Below are positions 1 to 9,508 of a stretch of DNA of 25,556 bases, one piece after another. Position 1 is the stretch's first letter. Each line of letters starts with the position of its first letter. The translations under genes were made by a program, and so were the position numbers. Source of the DNA: a virus; IMG/VR virus record IMGVR_UViG_3300049914_000018, positions 1 through 25,556 of that record. One strand, 5' to 3'. The notes beneath the pieces are model-generated. The model made no database searches. It saw only the letters and a program-made list of their open reading frames with translations, and was not told where the DNA came from.

Positions 1-192
1 CCATAATTTAGGAGTATTAATATTGGCATGTATTGGATTAAATATAACGGCAAGCAACGGATCGTCACAATAATGAATATATGCATCGGTGCATAATTCA
101 CCACAACCTTTTGTAGTTACCGTTTTACCAATTTCCCATTTAAAATCATTACGAGTTGTATTGTTTTGAGTTGTTAGTTTGTAGGCAAGCAT
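1..192 (-). CDS. Partial small hypothetical protein (N-terminal 64 residues)
   Basis: The gene starts at ATG 192 and runs off the left edge still open. Upstream on the minus strand is GGAGAGAG, a good Shine-Dalgarno sequence 4-5 bases before the ATG, and a sigma70-like promoter lies about 40 bases further up. The visible part begins MLAYKLTTQNNTTRNDFKW and contains ELCTDAYIHYCDDPLLAVIF followed by NPIHAN. This cysteine/histidine-bearing pattern resembles small phage-encoded proteins of unknown function that I have seen in phage genomes, but I cannot give a family name. It does not belong to the structural operon, because over 850 non-coding bases and a promoter separate it from the spanin-like gene. 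The function is unknown. The reading frame itself is well supported by the SD and by the absence of stops. Confidence 0.7.
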   Translation of the reverse strand, partial: MLAYKLTTQNNTTRNDFKWEIGKTVTTKGCGELCTDAYIHYCDDPLLAVIFNPIHANINTPKLW

Positions 193-229: not shown

Positions 230-258
230 AGTGTAAACAAGTATTTTTACATTGTCAA
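230..258 (-). promoter_or_regulatory. Sigma70-like promoter for the left-edge gene
   Basis: Read on the minus strand, a perfect -35 hexamer TTGACA (258-253) is followed after exactly 17 bases by TACACT (235-230), which matches 4 of 6 positions of the -10 consensus. The expected start near 223 gives a leader of about 30 bases carrying the SD before ATG 192. It implies that the gene at the left edge is transcribed separately from the late operon. Confidence 0.55.
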
Positions 259-406
259 GTTAAATTTTCTAATTAAGAAAGTTCTAATAATACTGGCTAT
301 TATAATACTTACTATTGCAAATTGGGGTGTATAAAGTATCGACCAGTGCCATTATAATTCAATGGCGTTGATCGTAGAGCGTTTTTTGGCTATTAAAACT
401 TGCCTG

Positions 407-465
407 TTTAACCTTAATTAGCGGGATTCACTAATAAAGGTTAAAATGTTACCTCTTGGTAATAT
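407..465 (+). other. Two abutting strong hairpins of the candidate RNA
   Basis: The first hairpin pairs 407-415 with 437-445 (TTTAACCTT/AAGGTTAAA, 9 bp). After a single A-A mismatch, 417-421 pairs with 431-435 (5 bp), leaving a 9-base loop CGGGATTCA. The second starts at the next base and pairs 446-453 with 458-465 around a TCTT tetraloop, including one G-U pair (448-463). The two stems could stack coaxially. Confidence 0.7.
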
Positions 466-498
466 ATTTATAGTATCTCTTGACTTTTAATTGTAATA

Positions 499-620
499 GT
501 TGCAAATTTAGAGTGCAGGTAGTTGCAATATGCTTTCAGCCTATATATTCTTTTCAGTGTCAGCCAAAACTTCCTGCACAAAGTTTTGTTTGATCGTATT
601 GCACGGTCTGGCACTGAAAA
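499..620 (+). other. Kissing-loop domain of the candidate RNA
   Basis: Hairpin 499-505/523-529 exposes a 17-base loop containing GTGCAGG (513-519). A 13-bp helix, 551-563/608-620 with one U-G pair, encloses hairpin 565-572/581-588, whose 8-base loop contains CCTGCAC (573-579). The two loops are perfectly complementary over 7 bases, so they can form a loop-loop (kissing) interaction, either within one molecule or between copies. Confidence 0.65.
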
Positions 621-699
621 AAGTAGATAGGTTTTTTTATGCCCTTACATAGAGAACGGGATGTCTGTTTTATAGATCAGTAACCCCTTCCTCACAATA

Positions 700-959
700 T
701 AAGTATGGAGTAGTTTTTTTACTGACTGAGTGAATTAACACTTGGGTCGTTCGAAGTTTGAACGATAGGCGTATGTGCAGAAATAATCGCCTGTAAGGTT
801 GTTAGTTGAATCGTTGGCTAATAATCAATCGCTTGAAGGGATACCCCTTGCACTCCTGACTGAGAATATCCACCTGATAGACAAACCAGAGGTGGGAAGT
901 AGGTCAAACGATTACGCGAAAACTTGAAACTTCATTCCAGCCGCCAGAGTCCATACTTA
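700..959 (+). other. Multibranch domain of the candidate RNA
   Basis: A perfect 10-bp helix, TAAGTATGGA (700-709) with TCCATACTTA (950-959), closes a domain that holds six nested hairpins in series: 746-766, 767-792, 799-824, 836-849 (AAGGG/CCCTT with a 4-base loop), 870-895 (CCACCT/AGGTGG) and 896-933. Loop bases 809-814 (AATCGT) are complementary to loop bases 908-913 (ACGATT), giving a second possible kissing contact. A competing local pairing, 678-683/719-724, would have to open or form a pseudoknot. Confidence 0.6.
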
Positions 960-1050
960 AAAATCCCCTGAGCACTCTCACGTACTTTTGCTTATTCTTG
1001 CCGCCAGATAATAAAAGAAGATTATCAGTACAAACTTAAAGAGTACAAAA

Positions 1051-1731
1051 CTACCATAGCTTATAAGCTACTTCAATACCACATTCAGGGATGGTACTAA
1101 CTCTTGGGGAGAGTCTAAGTTTATCAAGTATCATATAATCAAACGAAACGAAGAGGTATAACGAGTGAGGACTTTGAGGAAATGATGCGCTTAGACCTAA
1201 GTAGACACCATCCATACTTGTGTGATTGTCCTGAACGAAGGTCTGAGTTGTATTGGTCGTTAATCTCTCATACCAAATCGGATTGAAGTCTATTTTATAA
1301 TCTATAAATCTTTCAAGGAAATATGGATAGGCTGTAATCGTAACTCTCATCAATGTATCTTCTTTTTCTAAATACATCGGTTCGTAGGCCGCAAAGAGTA
1401 AGGAGTCTTTATTGTAGTTTTCTTGCAACAGACTGTCAATCCTATCTTTTAATGTCTGAGAAAGTTGAAGCGATTGAGTTAATCCCGTCCCCTGCTTCGA
1501 TGGTAACTGAATCGGAACTCTTACTTTTACCGTGTCAGTTTTTTTCTTAGCTACCATCTCAGCAAGTTGTAAATTCAATCTTTGTACTTCTTCTAATCCT
1601 TGTTCTTTTCCCTCAGCGATTCCTGTCAAATGTCTGTACGATCCGTAGGCAATTATACAAACTGTAAAGATTAAAACGACGTACAACCATTTAGGAGTTG
1701 AACCAAAGAATTTAACTATAGATTGCCACAT
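1051..1731 (-). CDS. Membrane-anchored coiled-coil protein, spanin-like
   Basis: A 226-residue protein. Residues about 15-35 form one hydrophobic segment (WLYVVLIFTVCIIAYGSY), followed by a charged helical stretch to about 115 likely to be coiled coil, and then a beta-rich C-terminal part. The last 50 residues alternate hydrophobic and polar residues and end in an aromatic Trp, as outer-membrane beta-strands often do. It starts at ATG 1731, with AGAGGAATT upstream as SD, and overlaps the endolysin stop by 16 bases. It is the last gene of the late unit. Position beside the endolysin, the N-terminal TM and the periplasmic helix suggest disruption of the outer membrane at lysis, as spanins do. 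No family match is recognised, so the role is inferred. A structural membrane protein is the alternative. Confidence 0.6.
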   Translation of the reverse strand: MWQSIVKFFGSTPKWLYVVLIFTVCIIAYGSYRHLTGIAEGKEQGLEEVQRLNLQLAEMVAKKKTDTVKVRVPIQLPSKQGTGLTQSLQLSQTLKDRIDSLLQENYNKDSLLFAAYEPMYLEKEDTLMRVTITAYPYFLERFIDYKIDFNPIWYERLTTNTTQTFVQDNHTSMDGVYLGLSASFPQSPHSLYLFVSFDYMILDKLRLSPRVSTIPECGIEVAYKLW

Positions 1732-2273
1732 AATTCCTCTTCTAATTCTGGGGCTATGTTTTCACTACGGACCATCCATCCTTTGTAAGCGTAGTGATCT
1801 TCACCGTGTTTCTCTTTATAACGCTCATTGATCTTTGCGTAATGAATCTGCTGAAGGTTGACTAACTTATTCAATACGTCTATCGGTTCGCTTAAATTAA
1901 TCGCTCTGAGCGTAACCTCGCCAATAATTCCATCGGGTAATACCCCTACAGCGTTCTGAACCATTTTTGCGGCAGTTCTTGTACCACAATTGACGGCTAT
2001 GTCAAAGACTTTCCAAGCCACACGATCCGAGATTATACAAGTAAGGTGTAAATAATTCCAAAAGTCTCTATGGTAGATTTCAATGGCCTTTTCTTCTGTC
2101 AAAGATTTAATATCATATTCAGGATAAGACGAGGCGGAGATACCAAATTTAGTTCCTTTTAAATCTCCTTGCCCAACTTCTCCGCCCGTCCAATTACCAA
2201 CATCTTTCGGATTGTCCTGAAACCCACCTTCAAACTTTAATGTCAATGGATAACATCTTTCCCATTGTGCCAT
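1716..2273 (-). CDS. Endolysin, GH108-type N-acetylmuramidase
   Basis: A 185-residue soluble muramidase that would cut the glycan strands of peptidoglycan at the end of infection. The glycoside hydrolase family 108 pattern is clear: KFEGGF near residues 13-18 with the catalytic Glu at 15, GTKFGIS at about 40-46, SLTEEKAIEIYHRDFW at 57-72, FDIAVNCG at 90-97, and a C-terminal peptidoglycan-binding-like part with DGIIGEVTL at 114-122. No signal peptide is seen, so release depends on a holin. The start at ATG 2273 follows AGGAG by 5 bases, and that SD lies 2-3 bases beyond the upstream gene's stop codon. The insert between the EGGF and GISAS motifs (GNWTGGEVGQGDLKG) is within the normal range for the family. 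The downstream partner is the spanin-like gene at 1051-1731. Confidence 0.9.
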   Translation of the reverse strand: MAQWERCYPLTLKFEGGFQDNPKDVGNWTGGEVGQGDLKGTKFGISASSYPEYDIKSLTEEKAIEIYHRDFWNYLHLTCIISDRVAWKVFDIAVNCGTRTAAKMVQNAVGVLPDGIIGEVTLRAINLSEPIDVLNKLVNLQQIHYAKINERYKEKHGEDHYAYKGWMVRSENIAPELEEELCGNL

Positions 2274-8431: not shown

Positions 8432-8697
8432 TACTTTTCTTTCTTCATTTTTCTGAATCTCTCATCTTCCGCCCAACTGGAATACTGTCTCAGATAATTT
8501 TCTATAATCACATCTTCCATAGTCAAAATCTTCTCCACTTCTTTTCTCTTCAGAATATCTTCAGGATATAAACAATATAACATCCACTCTCTACCGAATT
8601 CCCGTGGTGGTGGAGTTATGCCATAGTCTTTAGTTTTGAAGCGTCCAAACGCTTTCTTTGCTCGGAGAACTTTGTCAGTTTCTCCGCGTAGTACGCG
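8431..8697 (-). CDS. Tail assembly chaperone -1 frame extension (T part of G-T)
   Basis: Between the short chaperone and the tape measure, the -1 frame is open from just after a TGA about 25 bases upstream of T TTT TTC down to a TAA that overlaps the tape measure ATG as TAATG. If ribosomes slip at 8703-8697, 85 residues of the short form are joined to 88 more, making a 173-residue protein. The added part runs RVLRGETDKV... through PPPREFGREWMLYCLYPED to ..WAEDERFRKMKKEK and looks like genuine coding sequence, rich in helix-forming and charged residues. An in-frame ATG lies after GAGAGTGG (Met 39 of this part), so internal initiation is an alternative. Programmed frameshifts at this place are conserved in many long-tailed phages. 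Confidence 0.7.
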   Translation of the reverse strand, partial: RVLRGETDKVLRAKKAFGRFKTKDYGITPPPREFGREWMLYCLYPEDILKRKEVEKILTMEDVIIENYLRQYSSWAEDERFRKMKKEK

Positions 8698-8951
8698 AAA
8701 AAATCTGCCTGTATTCCCCCGAACTCATCTATAGCAATATTATCAAATCCCAATTCACTTGGAATAATTCTTAAATACTTCCATAAGAAATTCTTTTTAA
8801 ATGCAGTCCGGCAAATCTTATTCCATAAGTACTTAGTTCTTTTAGACTTCCTGACCCAAAAGGGAATATTCTGCAATTTCTCAATCTTTGCTTGTGCTGC
8901 AAAAGTGATTTCAGCAAACTCAAACTTTTTACCACCGACAATACGTTCCAT
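8616..8951 (-). CDS. Tail assembly chaperone, short form (gpG-like)
   Basis: A 111-residue, helix-rich, basic protein just upstream of the tape measure, the position of lambda G/GT and Mu gp41/gp42-type tail assembly chaperones. These coat the tape measure and recruit tail tube subunits and are not part of the virion. The start at ATG 8951 overlaps the holin stop as TAATG. Codons 83-85 are GAT TTT TTC, which contains the classical -1 slippery heptamer T TTT TTC (8703-8697). Unshifted ribosomes finish after 26 more residues (ending SKLKTMA) at 8616, and shifted ones continue in the frame described at 8431-8697. Family assignment comes from position and frameshift structure rather than from sequence recognition. 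Confidence 0.7.
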   Translation of the reverse strand: MERIVGGKKFEFAEITFAAQAKIEKLQNIPFWVRKSKRTKYLWNKICRTAFKKNFLWKYLRIIPSELGFDNIAIDEFGGIQADFFAYYAEKLTKFSEQRKRLDASKLKTMA

Positions 8952-9181
8952 TATTTAACCTCTGGTTTAGCAAAGTTTCCATTTGAATTGGTCAACCAAT
9001 TCTTTAAGAGATAACTCAGAGCCGCGCCAAGTGCAACCGTTCCAATAGTCTGTAGGTCGGACACTGTAGGCAACGACCCGGCTTGTACTATCTGATACAA
9101 TGCTGTGATTATCGCTGTAATAACAGCAAGGATACTACCTTTGATAATATCCTGTAGGTTTAATTTCCCGAATATGCTCAT
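8951..9181 (-). CDS. Holin-like small membrane protein
   Basis: A 76-residue protein with two hydrophobic segments: residues about 14-33 (KGSILAVITAIITALYQIV) and 44-60 (TIGTVALGAALSYLLKNWL), separated by a short polar turn (AGSLPTVSDLQ). It ends in a hydrophilic charged tail. Two TM helices, small size and a charged C-terminus are typical of holins, which open the inner membrane so that the endolysin can escape. The start at ATG 9181 has a strong AAGGAG 7 bases upstream. It overlaps the tail chaperone start as TAATG. It is separated from the endolysin by about 6.7 kb of tail genes, which is unusual but does not exclude the role. A non-lytic membrane protein is the alternative. Confidence 0.65.
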   Translation of the reverse strand: MSIFGKLNLQDIIKGSILAVITAIITALYQIVQAGSLPTVSDLQTIGTVALGAALSYLLKNWLTNSNGNFAKPEVK

Positions 9182-9193
9182 TTTATTGCTCCT

Positions 9194-9508
9194 TTAATCT
9201 GTGTAATCTGCTGTTGGTACTTTGTGCAAATTATTTATTTTAACTATCTCTGCACGATCTATTTTCTGTCGAAGTCTATATCTCTCAGACATTGCCTCTA
9301 AGTCATTCAGTACATCCATTATCTTAGCGTTTACTTCTTCAAATTGCTTCCTTGTTAAATAAGTCTCCGCCGCATGTGTTGTAGTCTCAATATTGTACCT
9401 TGCAATCGCCATAGGTATTAAGTATCCGGAAATGAGAACCAAAATAACAAGTAAACTCTTCCAAGCCCATTGTAACCACCAGTTATGTTTTTCTAATAAA
9501 TGTTTCAT
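9194..9508 (-). CDS. Single-TM protein with periplasmic helix
   Basis: A 104-residue protein starting MKHLLEKHNWW. Residues about 17-37 form one TM segment (SLLVILVLISGYLIPMAIA), followed by a charged helix (residues 50-90, TRKQFEEVNAKIMDVL...) with coiled-coil character, and it ends KVPTADYTD. I chose ATG 9508 rather than the GTG three codons earlier because AGGTGG sits 5-6 bases before it. It precedes the holin-like gene by 12 bases. The layout (TM, then helix on the outer face) fits an i-spanin or a holin-associated regulator, but no family is recognised. It forms a small membrane-protein pair with the next gene, inserted between fibre genes and the tail chaperone. Confidence 0.6.
   Translation of the reverse strand: MKHLLEKHNWWLQWAWKSLLVILVLISGYLIPMAIARYNIETTTHAAETYLTRKQFEEVNAKIMDVLNDLEAMSERYRLRQKIDRAEIVKINNLHKVPTADYTD

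Follow-up and report, generated by a model that had tools for sequence, protein, structure and literature searches.

Phages and prophages encode base-pairing small RNAs that end in intrinsic terminators, such as lambda oop and the C4 RNAs of P1 and P4; to our knowledge, small RNAs of the oop/C4 type lack a forked stem whose two loops are both matched by a tail. Exonuclease-resistant and tail-loop pseudoknot RNAs form base pairs, at a junction, between their hairpin loops and a 5' strand. GOLLD and ROOL are elaborately folded phage non-coding RNAs (PMC12286853). The putative RNA described here is likewise a phage non-coding element with an elaborate fold; however, GOLLD and ROOL span hundreds of nucleotides, often lie by tRNA islands and have Rfam models, whereas the unit proposed here has about 130 nt, no tRNA was found in the window, and no Rfam model matches. 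Like oop and C4, it is short and placed in phage intergenic space, with a stem plus U-tract and a promoter of its own (here predicted), but it has no C4 or other Rfam match. With exonuclease-resistant and tail-loop pseudoknot RNAs it shares the layout only, the sequence and model comparison being limited to Rfam.

The window analyzed is a 25,556-bp IMG/VR record of an uncultivated Mu-like phage, with a Portal_Mu portal (3.5e-79), a phrog_1005 major head protein, a tape measure protein, and a GH108 endolysin. All credible genes of the window are carried by the minus strand, and an interval of 858 nt (193-1050) without a gene separates the lysis genes from the promoter of a DUF7666 gene:

1-192, minus strand: DUF7666 gene (Pfam PF24703, 1.5e-6), cut by the window edge
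230-258, minus strand: TTGACA-N17-TACACT, the promoter predicted from sequence for this leftward gene
1051-1731, minus strand: gene for a 226-residue protein with an N-terminal hydrophobic segment, adjoining the endolysin gene and spanin-like by position only
1716-2273, minus strand: endolysin gene (Glyco_hydro_108, phrog_315)

The 226-residue protein has no Pfam, PHROG, or phage match. The small open reading frames within 193-1050 have no Pfam match either, so that the gene-free interval recognized by an earlier, sequence-only reading is upheld. Around the -35 box of the DUF7666 promoter, 24 nt (window 247-270) recur at 88% before the terminase genes of record G003 (L020, 14212-14235) and near the end of record G001 (L019, 4842-4865), perhaps as a shared phage promoter sequence.

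The interval folds better than dinucleotide shuffles on both strands, most strongly in 320-640 and, on the plus strand only, in 698-962. The z-scores against these shuffles were −3.8 on the plus and −4.7 on the minus strand for 193-1050, −4.7 and −5.9 for 320-640, and −5.6 and −4.3 for 536-640. For 300-1019, the plus-strand value (−4.24) was the lowest among 17 windows on that strand; the minus-strand value (−3.55) was close to that of a coding window (8551-9270, minus strand, −3.51). Gene-poor regions of the relatives G015, G011, G017, and G019 folded no better than shuffles, and gap calling from codon usage was too noisy. Fold energy alone leaves the strand unsettled; the plus strand is supported by two U-G pairs kept in both phages (548/623 and 560/611), together with a U-tract end and an upstream -35-like box that lie on the plus strand in both.

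Related phage records, about 20, were gathered via the portal and two alignments; as single queries, the endolysin, the head protein, and one tail protein found no relatives. When 193-1050 was compared with these records by BLASTN and nhmmer, only the 24 nt of the DUF7666 promoter rose above chance matches, and only chance matches came from phages, plasmids, and the genomes of the class to which a Melioribacter metagenome-assembled genome (MAG) belongs. A homologue with double-changed pairs was reached by a covariance model (R1) built from window 536-640 alone. R1 matched positions 15570-15466 (minus strand, L062) of the 60-kb record G019, a distantly related phage, with 37.9 bits and a rough E value of 6e-6 from a short calibration (521 kb searched); a control search of other viral DNA, 765 kb in all, gave nothing at E ≤ 10. 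Only 536-640 (plus strand) of the interval has this homologue. Roughly half of the aligned bases are different between the two copies, and that of G019 folds by itself with a z-score of −7.0. The elements of the predicted fold are as follows:

480-485, plus strand: -35-like box TTGACT; the -10 at N17 (CAAATT) is poor
508-640, plus strand: proposed small RNA, about 130 nt long; 5' end approximate, 3' end at the U-tract, covariance homologue for 536-640
513-519, plus strand: tail segment 1 (GUGCAGG), complementary to loop 1 (573-579); 7/7 pairs in both phages, 3 double-changed
524-530, plus strand: tail segment 2 (UGCAAUA), complementary to the hairpin 2 loop region (597-603); 7/7 pairs in both phages, 5 double-changed
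538-561, plus strand: 5' strand of the closing stem P1, pairing with 610-633; inner UUCAGUGUC invariant
565-588, plus strand: hairpin 1 (565-572/581-588, loop 573-580); double changes in 4 of 8 pairs
592-608, plus strand: hairpin 2 (592-597/603-608, loop 598-602); the G019 hairpin takes a different register from the model alignment
610-633, plus strand: 3' strand of P1; inner GGCACUGAA invariant
632-638, plus strand: U7 tract that follows P1, likely an intrinsic terminator; the alignment has UUUUUUAU here for both phages

In the model-fitted alignment (A7), 95.9% of cells are paired and 13 of the 37 pairs are double-changed, a count reached by none of 500 shuffles, and slid registers leave only 32 to 45% paired; with two sequences and an alignment fitted to the model structure, such pair counts may overstate the support. 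Since a MAFFT alignment (A6) was one base out of register in P1, this stem was counted both on A7 and without gaps, anchored at the invariant CAGUGUC/GGCACUG with a spacing of 55 in both phages. In the ungapped register, P1 has 24 pairs, formed at 22 positions in the window and at all 24 in G019; seven are double-changed, and the inner nine pairs, including one U-G, are invariant. Hairpin 2 aligns uncleanly (83% of cells paired), its G019 counterpart being UUGCC-CCUCU-GGCAA. A conserved reading frame, the coding alternative that the sequence-only reading had allowed for, is disfavored because the differences are evenly spread over the codon positions (16/15/15, no codon periodicity), and with the small open reading frames lacking Pfam matches the protein-coding explanation was rejected. 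The proposal of a structured plus-strand RNA itself is supported by the 13 double-changed pairs and by 3 and 5 more in the tail-loop pairings, and on this comparison 508-640 is very probably a conserved plus-strand structured RNA.

Upstream of P1, the predicted 5' tail is complementary to the loops of both hairpins, and the tail of G019 has the same layout in different letters. The complementarity of segment 1 reaches 524/568 with one mismatch; in this 12-pair version five pairs are double-changed, a count equaled or exceeded in 15 of 500 shuffles. Against shuffled tails, the pairing energy with hairpin 1 gave p values of 0.01 in the window and 0.0035 in G019, and that with hairpin 2 about 0.05 and 0.014, making segment 2 the weaker of the two; all of these are optimistic, because the pairings were spotted by inspection before testing. 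An intrinsic terminator has no need of such a tail, complementary to a pair of loops and changed in step with them between the phages, and the -35 boxes upstream suggest that the element has a transcript of its own. We therefore consider it improbable that the locus is an elaborate intrinsic terminator or a double-stranded protein-binding element with no base-pairing role, even if the long stem with its U-tract and the folding of both strands would suit such an element and a protein might bind the invariant inner P1 strands with their kept U-G pair.

The promoter signal is clear in G019, where TTGACA (15627-15622) and TACTAT (15604-15599) are spaced by N17, whereas the window has a weak -10. 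TTGAC lies at −155 from the U-tract in the window and at −157 in G019, and the tract that follows the stem is U6 to U7 across the two phages. When 144 stem-plus-T-run candidates were screened, no other two-hairpin candidate among the 40 lowest in energy had TTGAC at this place. Tail-loop pairing and -35 spacing are features outside the covariance model that agree with it; together with the match in a related phage, the 13 double-changed pairs, and zero matches in the control set, they make it highly improbable that an AT-rich spacer folds and matches G019 by coincidence, a view to which the family of only two members and the many tests preceding the match would otherwise lend some weight.

The surroundings of the two copies differ. 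The G019 element occupies a 267-nt gap just upstream of a co-directional Phage_rep_org_N gene, while the window element runs opposite to the late genes toward a convergent gene (1051-1731), with none downstream on the plus strand. A 5' leader or attenuator that terminates at the U-tract unless a tail-loop switch is set, and so controls the downstream gene, would suit the place of the G019 copy between its promoter and the same-strand replisome-organizer gene, and the tail pairing and hairpin 1 are indeed alternatives; however, the window copy has no such gene to control, and the tail, in either state, leaves the stem that leads into the U-tract intact. A leader is thus unlikely, and a free-standing RNA is favored, as one copy precedes a rep gene and the other has no downstream gene. 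Beside the Mu-type structural module of G019 (L062, 18401-19372) lie genes for a recombination-directionality-factor-like protein and a replisome organizer, for which reason the lifestyle of this phage may not be Mu-like transposition.

The element is likely to be a functional small RNA, the family of which has not been described before. It probably regulates by base pairing, with its own tail masking the loops. Transcription would start near 508-512 from a sigma70-type promoter and stop at the U-tract. The tail may then form a tandem pseudoknot by pairing with both loops, or swap with hairpin 1, an arrangement considered because this hairpin and the longer tail pairing are mutually exclusive. 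In the closed state, the loops would be masked and the 5' end tucked away from nucleases; opening by a partner RNA or protein could let the loops serve as antisense contacts. Action in trans is favored by the two different gene contexts and by the opposite orientations relative to the late genes. A target search at the translation starts of both phages yielded energies no better than those of shuffled RNA, except for the antisense of the locus itself, and the regulatory step is accordingly offered as a proposal. Taken whole, regulation included, the reading of 508-640 as a plus-strand phage small RNA of about 130 nt that acts by base pairing is tentative, and we put it a little short of an even chance.

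This unit is much shorter than the single RNA of over 700 nt proposed by the sequence-only reading, since it ends in the U7 tract and its G019 copy stands alone in its gap. The long stems named there (551-563/608-620, 407-423/429-445, and 340-353/361-374) all exist, but the absence of interior A-C mismatches noted there is not confirmed: a C-A mismatch occurs within the stem 340-374 (C343/A371) and another within the stem 540-631 (C550/A621). Nor is there support for the element being antisense to the whole late operon, for it overlaps no late gene, and about 410 nt lie between its U-tract and the end of the lysis gene at 1051. On either side of the unit, further folding is predicted:

340-465, strand not assigned: hairpins 340-374, 407-445, and 446-465, from folding
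698-962, plus strand: second structured block, in which a 9-bp closing stem (700-708/951-959) encloses several hairpins; z −3.87 on the plus against −2.00 on the minus strand

The 698-962 block may be separate from the small RNA. By inspection, a loop within it (UGUGCAG, 773-779, hairpin 767-792) matches loop 1 (574-580 of 573-580) by 7 nt of complementarity, and a loop-loop contact is possible. This complementarity and the good plus-strand folding of both 320-640 and 698-962 would fit one large ornate RNA (about 300-960, plus strand) with 508-640 as a conserved domain. We regard it as quite improbable, because the U7 tract directly follows the stem, the G019 copy lacks such flanks, and a covariance model of 722-900 (R2) found no homologue. 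By the standard of an extended structure like that of GOLLD, ROOL, or OLE, the flanks fold, but a homologue was found for the 130-nt unit only. Resemblance to GOLLD or ROOL, suggested by the sequence-only reading, was not recovered: cmscan against Rfam 15, run with gathering scores on the entire window and with E ≤ 5 on 150-1150, returned no family, including GOLLD, ROOL, and OLE, and the homologous region of G019 had only a chance-level match (E 3.1). None of the sequences compared is homologous to the remainder of the 700-nt interval, which may, at the low odds given above, belong to a larger RNA. Decidedly improbable, too, is a combined form, in which a self-masking family whose 5' tail reads two hairpin loops in tandem, as a two-lock switch, would here be embedded in a larger multi-domain RNA (300-960) in contact with it through loop-loop pairing.

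If the small RNA reading is true, Rfam lacks a small RNA family that is carried by a lineage of uncultivated Mu-like phages and in which matched changes support the pairing layout of one tail with two loops; a short testable unit then replaces a vague claim of a giant RNA. The covariance model and a sequence pattern, TTCAGTGTC-N42-62-GGCACTGAA followed by T5+ (also TTCAGTGTCN{42,62}GGCACTGAA followed by T5), are concrete means to find more members. Searches of 294 to 395 genomes each, drawn from the class and the phylum of one Melioribacter MAG, found no member; this says little, because the Infernal filters were strict there and the portal of the MAG's own prophage is only 23% identical. Two exact-pattern scans for the hairpin loops gave 81 loci, none of them homologous, the best (L102) lying inside a coding gene. 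A pattern match in the phylum (G677) lies on the strand opposite to a host gene similar to that for the acetolactate synthase small subunit and was judged to be chance.

Two further sequence features were noted. An intergenic region of G003 (L026, 14013-14245) contains, by eye, a long complementary pair, TGTCTGTGGGTC and GGCTCACAGACA. In the window, a direct repeat, ATTCCAGCCGCCAGA and ATTCTTGCCGCCAGA, occupies positions 934-948 and 994-1008, 60 bases apart.
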